Source: Flavobacteriales bacterium (lineage in GTDB: Bacteria; Bacteroidota; Bacteroidia; Flavobacteriales_D; Crocinitomicaceae). Taken from it: a stretch of 64,000 nt of DNA. The translations under genes were made by a program, and so were the position numbers. The stretch covers positions 19,501-83,500 of the forward strand of contig JADFAL010000030.1 of assembly GCA_015665275.1 (NCBI GenBank), written 5' to 3'. Below the pieces are notes generated by a model. It saw only the letters and a list, made by a program, of their open reading frames with translations, had not been told where the DNA came from and ran no database searches. Position 1 is the stretch's first letter, and every line of letters begins with the position of its first letter. Shown in pieces: positions 17,812-64,000 of the stretch.

Positions 17812-19515
17812 TTACTTCACTAGTGCAGAGAATGTAGCGTCTTCTGCCCATTTCAAGAACTCACGATCTTTCATTGCTTTTGCTTTGTAAGATCCGTCTT
17901 TAGCGATAGCAGATTTCAAGTTGCTAACCACTGCAGAAAGGTTGTCTTGACGAGCAGCAGCAACCGCCATCAAGTAAGCTCCCTGTGCTGAATCAGCATC
18001 ATCGCTGTTCCCAATTGTTCCGTCAACGCTAGATGCATTTCCGTCTAACAATTGTGCCAATGCAAGGTTGAATGAAGCGTCCATAGCTCCAAGGTTGCTA
18101 ACAGCTGAAGAGTAATCTCCATTTTGGATGTCAATGATTCCTTTGTTGTAAGAAACTTCTTTCGCAGAACCAGCCTGAGCAAATAGCTTCGATGCTTGAT
18201 CGCGGTCTCCTTCAACAATATAAACAGCTCCTAAGTTGTTCTTAGCGAACTCATTTTCTTGAGCGTTGTTTGATTTTTCGAATTTCGCTTTCGCTTCAGA
18301 CATTTTGTTCATTTCGAACAATACCGCTCCAACGTTGTTAGATGTACGGTAATCTTCTGGGTAACGATCTTCAGCGATTTTGTATACACGAAGTTTTTCG
18401 TTCAAATCAGTGTAAAGATTTGCACAGAACAACAACTCTTCCAAGTTCATTGTATCAGGCATAGTCTTAGAATACTGCATCATTTCTTCATCAGAGAATC
18501 CAGTCTCGTCATATTTAGTCAAAATCTCAGCACGACGCAATTGTGGGAAAATGTTACGATCTAAGTAAGTAAATGATTTTCCAAGGTCACGCATTTTTTG
18601 CTCACGAGTATCAGGATTTTTTTCCTGCTCTAGGATACGAAGTACCAATTGCTTGTCACTCTCATCCATTTTCTCATCAGCCATCAACTCACGTTTGAAT
18701 CCGTCGTAATCTTCTCCAGATCCTTTCAATGAGTAATCTCCAGCTTCTTGTCCTTTCGTGTGCTCAGCTTTACCAGCAACTTTCATCGCTGCTTCAGAAC
18801 CTGATGTTGCACGATCAGAAGACAAGTTTGTATTCTTTCCTGTTTCTCCTTCCGGTGAAGCATGTCCAGTTACATTGAATCCAGTAACGTTAATTTTTGG
18901 ATTCTCGTTTGCCATCTCCAAGAATGCTTGAAGGTCATTGATATCATCATCACGCATTTCAGTAGAACGAACTTCTGAACGTCCTTTCAAGTAGTTGATT
19001 ACCGCAAGAGTATCTTTTGGAATCACACGCTCGAAGTTATCTTCTGCGTAACGAACGATTGGAGTCAAGTTCACCAAGTAAGGTGTAATGATACAAGCAT
19101 CGCAAATCTCAGTTGCTTCAACTTCACCTTTTTCTTTTTCTCCTTTATAGATTTTACCAGTTACCACCAACTTGGTAGCTTCCATGTCTGCTTTGTAAGG
19201 AACTTTGTCCGTGTAAGTAACACTTCCTCCAGCTTTATACTGGATAGCGTCTCCACTTCCTGTAGCTTTCTCTCCTTGAACGCGGAAAGTCTTCAATGAA
19301 GTGCTTCCTAGCGTCGGTGTAAATTCAACAGCGGCTTTTTTGTTGATTGATTTTTCAGGGAATGTAAGGTTAACAGTGATCTCCACAGAATCTCCGTGCA
19401 TTTCTAACGGATCTGGATCACATGCGTAATCGACTTCCTTTAATAGTTTACATCCGGTCGAAAAACCACCGGCAGCTATTAAAAGTGCCAATACTTTGAT
19501 GGTTTGCTTTTTCAT
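17812..19515 (-). CDS. OmpA-type lipoprotein with TPR-like repeats
   Basis: 567 residues from ATG 19515 (MKKQTIKVLALLIAAGG), giving a lipoprotein signal with Cys in FSTGC; the track's start nine codons upstream is less plausible. A beta-rich N-terminal region is followed at about residues 200-260 by an OmpA-like segment (INVTGFNVTGHASPEGE), then helical repeats resembling TPRs (NNVGAVLFEMNKMSEAKAKFEKS). This suggests an outer-membrane lipoprotein bound to peptidoglycan that scaffolds other envelope proteins. The gene is monocistronic by its strong terminator. Precise function unknown. Confidence 0.75.
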   Translation of the reverse strand: MKKQTIKVLALLIAAGGFSTGCKLLKEVDYACDPDPLEMHGDSVEITVNLTFPEKSINKKAAVEFTPTLGSTSLKTFRVQGEKATGSGDAIQYKAGGSVTYTDKVPYKADMEATKLVVTGKIYKGEKEKGEVEATEICDACIITPYLVNLTPIVRYAEDNFERVIPKDTLAVINYLKGRSEVRSTEMRDDDINDLQAFLEMANENPKINVTGFNVTGHASPEGETGKNTNLSSDRATSGSEAAMKVAGKAEHTKGQEAGDYSLKGSGEDYDGFKRELMADEKMDESDKQLVLRILEQEKNPDTREQKMRDLGKSFTYLDRNIFPQLRRAEILTKYDETGFSDEEMMQYSKTMPDTMNLEELLFCANLYTDLNEKLRVYKIAEDRYPEDYRTSNNVGAVLFEMNKMSEAKAKFEKSNNAQENEFAKNNLGAVYIVEGDRDQASKLFAQAGSAKEVSYNKGIIDIQNGDYSSAVSNLGAMDASFNLALAQLLDGNASSVDGTIGNSDDADSAQGAYLMAVAAARQDNLSAVVSNLKSAIAKDGSYKAKAMKDREFLKWAEDATFSALVK

Positions 19516-58498: not shown

Positions 58499-58858
58499 AT
58501 GAAAATGGCAACTATGTACTTACAGTCAGTAGTTTGTATTGACACATCAGAATCAGGAAAAGACGAAGTTTATGTAAAATACAGCATCGATGGAGGCTCT
58601 TCAAAAACGTACCCGAGTTCAGGATACCACTCAATGAGCGGCGATGAATACAACCCTTGGTACACGAATCTAAAATTGGAGTTCGACAGCACCGTTGAAA
58701 TCAAATTGTATGACAAAGACGACGTATCGAGCGATGATTTACTAGGTTCTCATACCTATACTACGGATGATGCGCAGTATACGGAATCACAACTGGCGAT
58801 GAATTCGGATGAAGGATCTCGTTATGTATTGGTTACAGGACCTACGGTTAAGGGTTAA
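58499..58858 (+). CDS. Small C2-like beta-sandwich protein, unknown function
   Basis: 119 residues, no signal peptide. Strands such as MYLQSVVCIDTSESGKDEVYVKYS and TNLKLEFDSTVEIKLYDKDDVSSDDLLGSHTY resemble C2-type domains, including the acidic loop KDDVSSDD that could bind Ca2+. Only six to eight strands fit, so it is a single domain. It stands alone between a candidate promoter and a clear terminator, pointing away from its neighbours. The start could instead be the Met at residue 3 or 6. Confidence 0.68.
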   Translation: MKMATMYLQSVVCIDTSESGKDEVYVKYSIDGGSSKTYPSSGYHSMSGDEYNPWYTNLKLEFDSTVEIKLYDKDDVSSDDLLGSHTYTTDDAQYTESQLAMNSDEGSRYVLVTGPTVKG

Positions 58859-58946: not shown

Positions 58947-60437
58947 TTAGCTAATCAAAGACTCCAAAGCAGGATAGTCTATTTTAGAATTATGCCTGGG
59001 ATCTCTTGGAATGTCCATGAATTTAATCTCATCGAAAGGAATATCCAAAGATTGTTCTAAACGATGATCAACATTTGCCCCACCTTCCAGCACTAGAATC
59101 AACTTCGAATTAATTTGAAGCAAGGTTCCCATGGTAACACCTGGTATTTGCTGCAGTCGATTTTCAATGATAAAGGGTGATAGAATTGAGTCGTTATGAT
59201 AGATCAATTGCTGGCTTCTCCCCGTTAAATACAATTCTCCACCCCATAGAAAGCCGGAGTCCCCCGTTCTATGCCATACCGTGTCTCCAACCACAATTTT
59301 GTTTTTCTTGAACGCTTCCTCATTGTTGAAGTAACGCTTTAAAACATGCGGTCCGGCCACAATTATCTCTCCTATCGTTTCGTCGTTAAGCGTGAGCGCA
59401 TCCAATTCGCTCATAGAAGCATTTGGAATCGCCGCCTCATTTATTTTAAAAATGCGCAAGTCTGTTTTGTGGTAAATATGTCCTACTGGTAATCCTACAG
59501 TCAACTTGTCTTCATTATCAATCAATTCCCCCGCTTCTATAGAACTAATCGGTTCTGATTCAGTCGATCCATAAACAATGTTTACAGCAGCCTTTGAAAA
59601 AGCATTCTTCAGCAACTTTGCTTGAGAAGGGAAAACAGGTGCGCCTCCGGTGAATACTTTATCAATTCCATTAAACACGTTTTTGTTTTCCGTCTTTTGA
59701 GCCAATTGTTCCACAATAAAAGGCGATGCAGTAATACGATTGACCTTGTGCTTCTCAATCTGGTTGACCAATTTTTGGGCGTCCATCGTTTCCGGTTTCG
59801 ACATTTTGAAATCGGCAATGACCGAAGTGCAACCTACCCCAAGGTTCACGAACAATACAATTGGTAAAACTGGCATGTCTACATCTTCAGCATTCGGGTC
59901 GATCTCGTCAAGCAGGGCGTCGAATTGTTCTTTCAAAAAACCATGCGTACGATCGGCTGCTTTTGGTCGTCCTGTGCTTCCGGTTGTAAAGGTTATAAGG
60001 GCCGAATCATTATTGGTGACTGACTGAATTTCGTGGATGTGGGAATCCTGTTTCTTTAATGAAAGCTTAATGGGAATGCGCCGTAATTCTTTTGAGAACC
60101 AAGAGAAAATTCGTGCCTTAGTAACTCCGATGAATCCCTTGCAGTCAGCAATCTCACAGCATAATTCCAGTCGTTTTTTGTTGACCCAAGCATCTAGGAA
60201 AACGGCTGTTGCACCACAATAGAATAAGGCCAAAACGATGCGGTAAAGGTCTACGCTCATTGGAACAAAAACAAGTACACGATCTCCTTTTTGAATGCCT
60301 TTTTTTCTGAAATATGCGGCCGTTTCAAGAACATCCTTTTTCAAATCGCTATACGAGATACTTGTCTTCGGATCGATGATTGCTAATCGATCTGGATGCT
60401 TTTCTGCAGTGTTAAGAAAGAGTCGAGAGATATTCAT
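58947..60437 (-). CDS. OleC-like AMP-forming acyl ligase
   Basis: 496 residues. ANL-superfamily adenylating enzyme with the P-loop ITFTTGSTGRPKAADRTHG, the A5-type VYGSTESEPISS and the RTGDSGFLWGGELYLTGRS motif. The DVDMPVLPIVLFVNLGVGCTSVIADF stretch and FTGGAPVFPSQAKLL closely recall OleC and related fatty-acid ligases rather than classic acyl-CoA synthetases. It could activate an acyl chain or form a beta-lactone. It is the last gene of the lipid-like operon and overlaps the GNAT gene by four bases. No oleA, oleB or oleD is visible. Confidence 0.82.
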   Translation of the reverse strand: MNISRLFLNTAEKHPDRLAIIDPKTSISYSDLKKDVLETAAYFRKKGIQKGDRVLVFVPMSVDLYRIVLALFYCGATAVFLDAWVNKKRLELCCEIADCKGFIGVTKARIFSWFSKELRRIPIKLSLKKQDSHIHEIQSVTNNDSALITFTTGSTGRPKAADRTHGFLKEQFDALLDEIDPNAEDVDMPVLPIVLFVNLGVGCTSVIADFKMSKPETMDAQKLVNQIEKHKVNRITASPFIVEQLAQKTENKNVFNGIDKVFTGGAPVFPSQAKLLKNAFSKAAVNIVYGSTESEPISSIEAGELIDNEDKLTVGLPVGHIYHKTDLRIFKINEAAIPNASMSELDALTLNDETIGEIIVAGPHVLKRYFNNEEAFKKNKIVVGDTVWHRTGDSGFLWGGELYLTGRSQQLIYHNDSILSPFIIENRLQQIPGVTMGTLLQINSKLILVLEGGANVDHRLEQSLDIPFDEIKFMDIPRDPRHNSKIDYPALESLIS

Positions 60438-61450
60438 AGGTCTATTCCGTAAAGTGAGTACGATTTGTAATGATCTCCCTCGTAATTGTTGGAAATGCTT
60501 ACCGAGTGGTTGTCGAGAATCATCAGTGCATGAATTACACGCTCAAAGTTTCGCTTGGCGGCAATTTGATAGGTTTTCCCGGCCAAATAGGATCCAATTC
60601 CTCGAAATTTTGTGTCCTTTTTTCTGGCAAGTGATTTAATGATCAAGGTTTTTCCAGAAGGATCGAGATAATCGGGAATTGAAAAGGAAATTGCTTGAAT
60701 TTCGCCTTCTTGATCTTCCACCACCCAAATGAGCTCCGGATCGAAATACTTCTTCAACTGCGCATATTTCTTCACAAAATCATCTTCTGCAATTGGGGTA
60801 AACAAGAAGTTCTCTTTAAATGCCTCGTTGTTGAATCTTGCCAATTTCTTCAAGTCGGATTCCAGATTATCCAAATCTATCGATCTGAATACGGCGCCAT
60901 TCTCTTTGAAGCGCTTCTCCCATTTCGTGATCCGTGCATCATCGTAGGTGAGTTGTGTATCAAGGTTGGAGATGTACGTTGCAACGTCTTGAAAACCGAA
61001 ATCTACCCAAAGCTTTCCATAGTACGCATGATGATACGGCTCCATGAAGAAGTTGGGATGCTTGTTATGATCGCTAAATCGATAACTGTTCCAAGTAGAT
61101 CCTTCCATTGGTCCAATGACATAAGCAAATCCATTTGATTTTGCATTGGCAATCGCTTTGTCTAAGAGGAATTTAGATGCTTCGGAATCTTCAATGCATT
61201 CGAAACTCCCTAGTGTGCATGCCTTTTTCTCATCAACTTCCAATCCTGGCTTAAGGTATAGAGCACACCTTGCAATGGCGTTGTCATTTTCAAGTAAAAC
61301 ATAGCAATTTGATAGGTGTTCTGAAGGAATCAGGTCGTGGCCCAAAATAAATCGCTGACTGTTCTCAGGGTACAACAGCTTAGGTAGTTCCGAGAAAAGA
61401 TGAAAATCCTTCTTACCCGGAAATGTTTCTATGATTTTGAAATTACGCAT
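60434..61450 (-). CDS. GNAT-superfamily N-acyltransferase of unknown substrate
   Basis: 338 residues. A tandem-GNAT-like fold is suggested by AYVIGPMEGSTWNSYRF at about residues 113-129 and by the acyl-CoA-binding-type RGIGSYLAGKTYQIAAKRNFERVIHALM near residues 288-315. The family, with the GPMxGSTWxxYR signature, is uncharacterised as far as I know. It lies between the OleC-like ligase (4-base overlap) and the kinase-like gene (8-base overlap), so it may transfer the activated acyl group to an amine formed in the same pathway (inference). Confidence 0.7.
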   Translation of the reverse strand: MRNFKIIETFPGKKDFHLFSELPKLLYPENSQRFILGHDLIPSEHLSNCYVLLENDNAIARCALYLKPGLEVDEKKACTLGSFECIEDSEASKFLLDKAIANAKSNGFAYVIGPMEGSTWNSYRFSDHNKHPNFFMEPYHHAYYGKLWVDFGFQDVATYISNLDTQLTYDDARITKWEKRFKENGAVFRSIDLDNLESDLKKLARFNNEAFKENFLFTPIAEDDFVKKYAQLKKYFDPELIWVVEDQEGEIQAISFSIPDYLDPSGKTLIIKSLARKKDTKFRGIGSYLAGKTYQIAAKRNFERVIHALMILDNHSVSISNNYEGDHYKSYSLYGIDL

Positions 61451-62120
61451 AGTTCAAATAGTATTCTGCAACGAGCAATACGATTGTCGCGGCAAATGGG
61501 ATGGTGAAATTATCGTATCCGCCATGAGAAATTCCTTCGGCGAAAGTCGTACAAATGGCTAGGACCATGGCTACAATTATCGCGTGCAAAATGGAGTAGT
61601 GCTCAAGTCCTATCAGAAATACGATGGAAAGTAAGAGCGCTGCGCCCATAAATGCTAAGGAACCGCTAATTGTTTTCTTTTGGCCAAATGCGCTGTAGGG
61701 TTTGTATGGATATTTCTTCCCAACATATGCAGCTATAGGATCGCACAATGCTAATGTTAAAATGGGAATGTAATACAATGCGAAATTGTCGAAGTAATTG
61801 TAGTTCAAAAAGCATCCGTAAACGATTATCGGATAAAGGATACTGCCGTTAGTTTTTCGCTCTACAGCATTGATGGAGGGTAACAATTTTAGTGGCCAGC
61901 TTACCAAGAGAATCACTAAAAAGCTTCCGCATAACGCTAATACGAACCAGTGATTTTCTAGCATTGGCGGGAAGAAGAGCGTCAGTACTCCAGTAAAAAT
62001 GTGGACTATTTTTCGCGTTATTTCTGCTTGAAAATTGAACTTGTGATACAATAATTCAGCTACTCCGAATAGAACTAGGAATGCTGTCCCCAAGATGCCT
62101 ATGTTGATCCAATTGGTCAT
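61443..62120 (-). CDS. Dolichol/phytol kinase-like CTP-dependent membrane enzyme
   Basis: 225 residues with about seven transmembrane helices. The ITRKIVHIFTGVL motif near the N-terminus and LALCDPIAAYVGKKYPYKP with GQKKTISGSLAFM match the CTP-dependent dolichol/phytol kinase (VTE5/SEC59) branch of the cytidylyltransferase superfamily. It probably phosphorylates a polyprenol or other lipid alcohol. Overlaps the DUF3419 gene by four bases and the GNAT gene by eight, so it is an integral part of the operon. Confidence 0.8.
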   Translation of the reverse strand: MTNWINIGILGTAFLVLFGVAELLYHKFNFQAEITRKIVHIFTGVLTLFFPPMLENHWFVLALCGSFLVILLVSWPLKLLPSINAVERKTNGSILYPIIVYGCFLNYNYFDNFALYYIPILTLALCDPIAAYVGKKYPYKPYSAFGQKKTISGSLAFMGAALLLSIVFLIGLEHYSILHAIIVAMVLAICTTFAEGISHGGYDNFTIPFAATIVLLVAEYYLNYA

Positions 62121-63205
62121 TTGTCTCGTTTGTCAATTTGAATTCCCATATAGAAAAATCCATTATCCTGTTTCGTCAGTGTTTTAGTCAATTCTGACTC
62201 ATTTTCGATTCCGTCGATACACGTATTGATTTTTCTCGGAACCATTAAGTTCCAGTACGCAAATCGCGCATTTGGCACGCTGTTATCAACGAGGTTTTGT
62301 GCTACATTTAGAAACAATTCCTGAGGCATGTATTCGAAAATATTGGAAAGGTTGAATTTAGAGAAGTTTTGATATTCGGCAAATGCTGCTTCCGCCAAAC
62401 CATTGAATACTACCAGTCGATCTAGATTGGATTTGATTTTTCCAAAGTTCTCTTCCCGCGCATAATGAGGAAGTTGGTCTCCGAAGTCACCTTTCATGAT
62501 AAAATGAAGAAAGTAATTGTTTTGCGCATTCGTATGACTTAGGTGCGCCGCGGCCTGCCCTAAAATAAATTCGGACACAACTACATCTACTTCTTTTAGG
62601 AATGCTGGATCTCGTCCGAAACGTCCCATCACGAATTTGCTAAAGAATAGTTTGAAAAGTAAACGCCAGCGTCTATTGTTCCATTTCTTATGGAAGAAGG
62701 ATGCCTGATCCTCATAAGACTTCGCTTCGAACAGGCGATCCACTCGTTTTCTTGGATGCACTAAGGGTAAAATTCTCCTGCGGAACAATTTAAAATAGCG
62801 CTCAAACTTGCCTTGATAAATTACGCCGTCGGCTAATTCTTGCTGTCTCGCTATCCAAAATTTTTGTAATTCGTCGGAAAGTTTTGTCTTCACTTTTTCG
62901 AACAATTCCAATCGACGCGAAGATGGTTTAAATCCTAGAAATTCAAGAAATTCTTGATACTCTAGTGTTGCGAAGGCGGCTTTTTTCAACTCGATGAGGC
63001 TCAACTGAACAGGGTTGATGTCCACCGCAACGACCAATTCGGGGCCTTCGGAAAGTAACGAGAAACTGTTATCTCCGGCGGAACCAATGGACAGTACGCG
63101 GTCTCCGGATTTGATTTGTAATCCTTCTAGTAACACATCGGCATCTTCCCAGCAATTGGCGTAGCGGATGTAGTCGTGTTGTACGTTATCTAGTTGTTCT
63201 TTCAT
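62117..63205 (-). CDS. DUF3419/BtaA-like SAM-dependent 3-amino-3-carboxypropyl transferase homologue
   Basis: 362 residues. The N-terminus RYANCWEDADVLLEGLQIKSGDRVLSIGSAGDNSFSLL and VVAVDINPVQLSLIELKKAA form the SAM-binding pattern of BtaA, which moves the aminocarboxypropyl group of SAM to diacylglycerol in betaine-lipid synthesis. No BtaB-type N-methyltransferase is encoded in the window. The active-site details cannot be judged by eye. First gene after the palindrome-bearing spacer; overlaps the kinase-like gene by four bases. Confidence 0.82.
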   Translation of the reverse strand: MKEQLDNVQHDYIRYANCWEDADVLLEGLQIKSGDRVLSIGSAGDNSFSLLSEGPELVVAVDINPVQLSLIELKKAAFATLEYQEFLEFLGFKPSSRRLELFEKVKTKLSDELQKFWIARQQELADGVIYQGKFERYFKLFRRRILPLVHPRKRVDRLFEAKSYEDQASFFHKKWNNRRWRLLFKLFFSKFVMGRFGRDPAFLKEVDVVVSEFILGQAAAHLSHTNAQNNYFLHFIMKGDFGDQLPHYAREENFGKIKSNLDRLVVFNGLAEAAFAEYQNFSKFNLSNIFEYMPQELFLNVAQNLVDNSVPNARFAYWNLMVPRKINTCIDGIENESELTKTLTKQDNGFFYMGIQIDKRDK

Positions 63206-63242
63206 AGAAATCTGCGTCTGTAGGTCCTTGTTTTATTGGAAT

Positions 63243-63277
63243 ATCGGAATATTCCGATTAAACAATATTCGAATATT
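63243..63277. promoter_or_regulatory. Two adjacent perfect palindromes, candidate operator
   Basis: ATCGGAATATTCCGAT (63243-63258, 16 bp) and AATATTCGAATATT (63264-63277, 14 bp) are both perfect palindromes 5 bases apart and share GAATATT half-sites. They lie in the 84-base spacer upstream of the DUF3419 gene and directly after the PEP-enzyme gene. An AT-rich region such as this gives some palindromes by chance, but two in tandem of this length is notable. Confidence 0.55.
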
Positions 63278-63289
63278 TAGGTTTTGCTA

Positions 63290-64000
63290 TCAAAATTCAG
63301 TATTTTCTAAAGTAGACTCTTCTACCACTTTAATCTCTCCCGTACTCCCATCCATAATCACTTCATCACCCGTTTTTAATGTTCGTAAAAGTCCCGTCAC
63401 ACTCACGATACAAGGAATTCCCATCTCACGCGAAACAATTGCAGAGTGACTCAATAGGCTTCCACGTTCCACAATAATTGCTGAAGCCGTTGGGAAGAGC
63501 GTCACCCAACCTGGATCGGTGCTGGAAGTCACTAAAATATCTCCATTTAGAGAGTCTATTTCATTTGGATCTTTCACCACGCGAACTTTTGCCTGAACAC
63601 GACCGGGGCAACATCCAATTCCGGACAAATCTCCCTCAATCGGTTCCATTTTTTCGGTAGAGTAGATGTATTCATCCGTGAAGTTGTTACCGTAAGTGAA
63701 GAATCGTTCTTCAGGATCTCGTTGCTCATGATATTCAGCAAATTCTGCTTTTCTGTCGGCAATTGTGGTTTTAATATTGCCTGGTAAAGGTGCATTTTGG
63801 AGTTGGAGAATTTCATCCAATTCCAAATAGAAAACATCACGTGGATGCTCTAGAATTCCGTCAGCCGCCAATCGTTCTCCAAGGTGCGAAAACATCGTTC
63901 GAACCATTCCAAATCCTCGCGTTCTTTCATAACGAAGGTTCTCACGATTGCTCACCAAATCACGCGCTTTTTTCAAAGCATAACGGAACCACCATCTCTT
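63290..64000 (-). CDS. PEP-utilising enzyme (PEP synthase/pyruvate phosphate dikinase-like), 5' end outside window
   Basis: The C-terminal 236 residues are visible; the frame runs open to the window edge (RWWFRYALKKARDLVSNREN), so the track's TTG start is not real. The swivelling phosphohistidine domain is clear: VERGSLLSHSAIVSREMGIPCIVSV (catalytic His) preceded by DPGWVTLFPTASAII. Such enzymes transfer phosphate via a His between ATP and pyruvate, or onto a small molecule as in rifampin phosphotransferase. Followed 84 bases later by the DUF3419 gene, separated by palindromes. The acceptor is unknown, and the ATP-grasp domain is not in view. Confidence 0.85.
   Translation of the reverse strand, partial: KRWWFRYALKKARDLVSNRENLRYERTRGFGMVRTMFSHLGERLAADGILEHPRDVFYLELDEILQLQNAPLPGNIKTTIADRKAEFAEYHEQRDPEERFFTYGNNFTDEYIYSTEKMEPIEGDLSGIGCCPGRVQAKVRVVKDPNEIDSLNGDILVTSSTDPGWVTLFPTASAIIVERGSLLSHSAIVSREMGIPCIVSVTGLLRTLKTGDEVIMDGSTGEIKVVEESTLENTEF

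Follow-up and report, generated by a model that had tools for sequence, protein, structure and literature searches.

The 64,000-nucleotide window analysed here (positions 19,501 to 83,500 of contig JADFAL010000030.1, from a Flavobacteriales bacterium of the Crocinitomicaceae) ends inside a tightly packed operon of seven genes, coding in order for a class I HMG-CoA reductase (HMGR), a UbiA prenyltransferase, an enzyme related to phosphoenolpyruvate (PEP) synthase (PPS), a BtaA-like DUF3419 protein, a VTE5/dolichol-kinase-like protein, a GNAT acyltransferase and an AMP-forming ligase. Conservation of this gene order is far beyond chance. We tentatively propose, with slightly less than even confidence, that the operon codes for a membrane-bound pathway to an aminolipid, built from a mevalonate unit, a prenyl group and an aminocarboxypropyl group derived from S-adenosylmethionine (SAM) and including an acyl or amide step. 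Mevalonate would serve in it as a building block and not as an isoprenoid precursor.

An earlier note, made from the letters of the window, had described five genes on one strand as an operon, the last four overlapping by 4, 8 and 4 bases. A check of the open reading frames (ORFs) found all five at those positions on the minus strand, and the overlaps are exact. However, the end of the window cuts the operon inside the fifth of these genes. The rest was read from the same contig, where the UbiA and HMGR genes precede PPS past the window edge; the operon is thus single, as described, but has seven genes and reaches window-equivalent position ~68101. It is bounded by opposite-strand ORFs at 58499-58858 and L002:11885-12214. 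Families were assigned from Pfam and NCBIfam profiles; a defence system was dismissed, PADLOC giving no match. From the last gene to the first, the operon reads:

58947..60437, minus strand: OleC/PRK09274-like AMP-forming ligase, 496 amino acids (aa), last gene of the operon
60434..61450, minus strand: tandem-GNAT acyltransferase, 338 aa
61443..62120, minus strand: membrane protein resembling VTE5/SEC59-type CTP-dependent lipid-alcohol kinases, 225 aa, no Pfam or PDB match
62117..63205, minus strand: DUF3419/BtaA-like candidate SAM 3-amino-3-carboxypropyltransferase, 362 aa
63290..64000, minus strand: C-terminal part, within the window, of the PEP-synthase/rifampin-phosphotransferase/PigC-like enzyme PPS, 868 aa; full gene L002:6791-9397, window-equivalent 63290-65896
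65893-66825, window-equivalent, beyond the window and upstream of PPS: UbiA prenyltransferase, 310 aa, overlapping PPS by 4 bases
66827-68101, window-equivalent, beyond the window: class I HMGR, 424 aa, 1-base gap to UbiA

When one genome per species was scanned with the DUF3419 profile, 80 loci were recovered, nearly all under Bacteroidota names and one as 'Chlorobi'. We took 83 loci into the neighbourhood analysis and judged gene order in the 80 holding at least three of the seven genes. Order and strand were identical in 80/80, all seven genes were present in 43, and median intergenic spacings ranged from −4 to 1 bases. The shared order rules out chance neighbours or a one-strain oddity; the conservation that the earlier note had named as a check extends far outside one strain. 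Pairwise distances between homologues correlate between all seven proteins (r = 0.68-0.88), as expected for a unit inherited together. Nine relatives in the genus or order of the window genome, whose nearest named relative is a Fluviicola metagenome-assembled genome, carry the module, some of these loci being cut by contig ends. Its spread is patchy, a DUF3419 search placing the operon in 9 of 33 congeners or fewer. We found no account of such a cluster in the open-access literature, in line with its earlier description as undescribed.

The best PDB match of the operon HMGR is the HMG-CoA reductase 6hr7 (5e-85), and the class I catalytic residues are conserved. In a set made up of relatives from the genus or order plus named carriers, 16/16 operon-bearing genomes had HMGR, against 0/7 of those lacking the operon. 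Across 247 Bacteroidia genomes it was found in 15 of the 16 with an operon-type DUF3419 gene compared to 53 of the 231 others (P = 1.4e-8, not corrected for phylogeny), and in 11 of these genomes it lay 3.5-4.8 kb from DUF3419 on the same contig. In 29 of the 31 operon-bearing genomes tested, the methylerythritol phosphate (MEP) pathway enzyme IspH was present and mevalonate-diphosphate decarboxylase (MVD) was not found. The two exceptions, G065 and G249, had MVD, lacked IspH and coded for two HMGRs each, one of them in the operon clade; six of six mevalonate-pathway controls without the operon had MVD and lacked IspH, as expected. The operon HMGRs group in a clade of their own, together with a plasmid-borne HMGR (see below). 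Operon-specificity and the MEP genes of carriers rule out a housekeeping role, and the operon HMGR seems unconnected with the supply of isopentenyl diphosphate (IPP) in these genomes. Since HMGR is operon-specific and its carriers either have IspH without MVD or possess a second HMGR, the operon probably uses mevalonate, or a close analogue, as a component reserved for its own product.

These data bear directly on a non-canonical mevalonate route to IPP, in which the kinases would phosphorylate and the OleC-like ligase would drive decarboxylation through a beta-lactone. Such a route would explain why one operon combines HMGR with two phosphotransfer-type enzymes and an OleC-like ligase, and would fit the polyprenyl synthase gene downstream in four loci. 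We nevertheless consider it highly improbable, given that nearly all carriers already have IspH, that G065 and G249, which use the mevalonate pathway, have another HMGR outside the operon clade, and that there is no OleB and no task for the BtaA-like and GNAT enzymes.

Plasmid NZ_CP121116.1 of Roseinatronobacter sp. S2 (Alphaproteobacteria) holds the same module in the same order, with identities of 34% for UbiA, 37% for PPS and 38% for DUF3419; the kinase-like, GNAT and AMP ligase genes are also there. The PLSDB gene table has no entry for the 1.4 kb that precede UbiA, a stretch spanning the record start; reading across it revealed an HMGR (41% identity, E = 5e-109; plasmid locus L106:523-8507 and L107:1-850). 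HMGR thus belongs to the core module in two phyla. The kinase-like protein of the plasmid has an added C-terminal domain of ~220 extra residues with no Pfam match. When further plasmid copies were sought with GNAT or UbiA, only Roseinatronobacter matched; the other plasmid DUF3419 matches that we inspected were discarded as BtaA-BtaB, a different ketoacyl-ACP synthase III cluster, or lacking annotation. Rhizobium plasmid pMK-2 (L108:808-7146) carries a different DUF3419 cluster, composed of genes for a ketoacyl-ACP synthase III, an NAD-dependent epimerase-type reductase, a metallo-beta-lactamase-type hydrolase, a CoF-synthetase-like ligase, the DUF3419 protein and an unknown protein.

A variant locus in genome G073 (contig C67, L129:8070-12213) has an operon-clade HMGR gene beside kinase-like, fatty-acid-desaturase-like, CDP-alcohol phosphatidyltransferase and CdsA-like genes, with no UbiA, PPS, DUF3419, GNAT or ligase gene in 20 kb. 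The pair of HMGR and kinase can thus occur apart from the other genes, and its position, once more beside phospholipid genes, speaks for a role of the HMGR product in lipids. Genome G162 has a stand-alone operon-clade HMGR gene (L130:9836-11092) with no further operon gene in 20 kb. A second class I HMGR clade (L132-L138, in G236, G123, G280, G253, G069, G060 and G148) has no shared neighbourhood; its members have open frames of 454-612 aa and, in most cases, an N-terminal extension.

Accessory genes recurring around the operon code, besides the polyprenyl synthase, for an SRPBCC/polyketide-cyclase protein (18 loci), a CdsA-like cytidylyltransferase and a CDP-alcohol phosphatidyltransferase (12 loci each). 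No transporter or exporter, carrier protein, non-ribosomal peptide synthetase (NRPS), polyketide synthase (PKS) or methyltransferase family is conserved among the neighbours of the 83 loci. Membrane enzymes together with CdsA and CDP-alcohol phosphatidyltransferase accessories, and no conserved transporter, NRPS or PKS, point to lipids. A diffusible small molecule, such as a prenylated, beta-hydroxy-acid or beta-lactone natural product, would fit the relation of PPS to PigC/RedH and rifampin phosphotransferase, the OleC-like ligase, the patchy distribution and the plasmid copy; mevalonyl units occur in fungal siderophores. We regard it as unlikely in view of the phospholipid-type accessories, the two integral-membrane lipid-type enzymes and the lack, noted above, of conserved neighbours for export, carrier proteins, NRPS or PKS.

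Profiles, models and motifs bore out the membrane and lipid enzyme families of the earlier note, and SAM, ATP and catalytic motifs are kept in HMGR, PPS, DUF3419 and the AMP ligase; the loss of SAM-, CTP- or ATP-binding residues that it had named as a possible refutation was not seen. PPS matched Pfam PPDK_N (1e-58) and PEP-utilizers (2e-24), had rifampin phosphotransferase (Rph; 5hv2/5fbs, 2e-60) as its best PDB matches, and retains the phospho-His catalytic motif LSHSAIV in 65/66 homologues; its rifampin-phosphotransferase score was 289.8 bits against a family cut-off of 999. The AMP ligase matched Pfam AMP-binding (8.7e-44) and scored 335.7 bits against NCBIfam PRK09274 (cut-off 478) and 176-183 bits against OleC models (cut-offs 850-900), with the motifs T-G-x-PKAA and RHxxKI in 53/56 and 51/56 homologues. 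By sequence, the DUF3419, kinase and GNAT profiles had no confident solved relative. The GNAT match was weak at this level (Pfam 0.014), and its AlphaFold model (pLDDT 93.2) led Foldseek to a tandem GNAT fold, with matches to MAB_4324, MshD, VipF and a Clostridium glucosamine acetyltransferase; a GPMxGSTWxxYR motif is nearly invariant. The kinase-like protein matched no Pfam, curated or PDB entry and has the invariant pattern D127-P, K149, G153, E195, G201, D203-N204 and P208 among homologues. Judged by family motifs, it may be related to the VTE5/SEC59 CTP-dependent kinases.

The DUF3419 protein (Pfam DUF3419, 7e-67) has the SAM-region motifs WED and SxGDN in 79/79 homologues, and hhalign aligned it over its full length, at 99.5% probability and 23% identity, with a BtaB-linked DUF3419 protein of R. 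leguminosarum. No BtaB-type methyltransferase family was seen among the conserved neighbours of the 83 loci, the rest of the genomes not having been searched; OleA, OleB and OleD were likewise missing there, as the earlier note had observed within its stretch. That note had suggested an N-acylated aminocarboxypropyl lipid. In its plainest form, the BtaA-like enzyme would act on diacylglycerol, the ligase and GNAT would acylate the amine of the resulting diacylglyceryl-homoserine, and HMGR and UbiA would be loosely linked. Full-length BtaA homology with a SAM motif and the adjacent, overlapping GNAT and ligase genes speak for this scheme, and acylation of the aminocarboxypropyl amine by the GNAT is plausible. 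It is, though, incomplete: once UbiA and HMGR are added from beyond the window, it offers no task for these two or for the phosphotransferase, three enzymes out of seven. Both added genes are conserved to the same degree as the others, plasmid included, and identity to the BtaB-linked homologue is low. We therefore judge it decidedly unlikely as the whole pathway and retain it as a possible part of one.

UbiA has the UbiA fold (model pLDDT 94) and the first Asp-rich motif, and is closest by profile and fold to the archaeal digeranylgeranylglyceryl phosphate (DGGGP) synthase MjDGGGPS, the nearest solved structures being 6m31 and 7bpu. This proximity raises the question of an archaeal-type glycerol-1-phosphate ether lipid, with UbiA as the second prenyl transferase after geranylgeranylglyceryl phosphate (GGGP) synthase. 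Such lipids in bacteria have been proposed for the FCB (Fibrobacteres-Chlorobi-Bacteroidetes) group (PMC7852524), and a GGGP-synthase-family (PcrB) gene, for instance G000:C16:65394-66044, is present in most of these genomes. The gene occurs in nearly all tested members of the genus, with or without the operon, and was not found in three operon-bearing genomes (G064, G067 and G068); we rejected a link to the operon because of this independent occurrence. HMGR in MEP users would also go unexplained, making an archaeal-type lipid very improbable.

In the mevalonate-containing aminolipid pathway that we infer, every substrate and step, as well as the lipid nature of the product, is a prediction from the enzyme families. 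HMGR would convert HMG-CoA to mevalonate, and UbiA would transfer a prenyl chain onto an aliphatic alcohol or phospho-alcohol acceptor in the manner of archaeal DGGGP synthase. The Rph-like PPS (with ATP, via phospho-His) and the VTE5-like kinase (with CTP) would phosphorylate alcohol groups, while a lipid hydroxyl would receive the 3-amino-3-carboxypropyl group of SAM through the BtaA-like enzyme. A carboxylate may be adenylated by the OleC-like ligase (OleC accepts 3-hydroxy acids, of which mevalonate is one), and the tandem GNAT may form an amide. These steps would yield an aminolipid with prenyl and amide groups, which some taxa would convert further to a CDP-lipid and phospholipid. Several points weigh against this pathway. 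The second Asp-rich motif of UbiA is replaced by ExGRK, invariant in 52/52 sequences, so that the donor may differ from the usual prenyl diphosphates, and we do not claim membership of a classical prenyl-diphosphate subfamily. HMG-CoA synthase models gave 0 matches, although they also miss several mevalonate-pathway users, and the enzyme may be present. Finally, the operon HMGR could have changed substrate.

A bolder version, in which the product is a widespread bacterial membrane lipid with mevalonate in its skeleton (as a non-glycerol backbone or linker) along with prenyl and aminocarboxypropyl groups, would amount to an undescribed class and give HMGR a role outside isoprenoid-precursor synthesis; we see this as possible but doubtful. 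If true, Fluviicola relatives, Saprospiraceae, Dyadobacter and Sphingobacterium would have a new class of membrane lipid, and at least one copy of the pathway would lie on a plasmid in Alphaproteobacteria. A lipid pathway as such is of a known kind, and the class would be new only if mevalonate is shown in the lipid; the gene set allows a direct test of this in strains that are in culture. The presence of HMG-CoA reductase is taken to mark the mevalonate pathway, and pathway annotation on that basis would go astray in these genomes, where the enzyme seems unrelated to IPP supply.

Each of the known systems nearest to the operon shares part of it. The ebo cluster, an operon likewise conserved in Bacteroidota, also codes for a UbiA prenyltransferase that is uncharacterised, UbiA-297 (PMC9235831). 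We discarded it as a counterpart: all its other genes differ, and the EboC model, whose cut-off is 250 bits, reached 16.8 bits here. DGGGP synthase and the UbiA superfamily have the fold and the first Asp-rich motif in common with the operon UbiA, which differs in its 17% identity to DGGGP synthase, its ExGRK motif and the lack of any NCBIfam model above cut-off. The OleABCD olefin/beta-lactone pathway has an OleC-like AMP ligase in common, though here below OleC cut-offs, and its other three proteins have no equivalent among the conserved neighbours. Rifampin phosphotransferase and PigC/RedH share the ATP-grasp and phospho-His domains with PPS, in which no PEP-binding C-terminal domain was detected; unlike them, PPS falls below the family cut-offs, has another middle domain and stands in a fixed lipid-type context. 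Class I HMGRs of the mevalonate pathway are alike in best PDB match and conserved catalytic residues, whereas those described here are operon-encoded and form a separate clade, and the lower mevalonate pathway is absent in nearly all carriers as judged by MVD, mevalonate kinase not having been searched for. The BtaA-BtaB betaine-lipid pathway likewise uses a DUF3419 enzyme with full-length homology and a SAM-binding WED and S-G-D/C-N region; in the operon, this distant relative has six other conserved partners.

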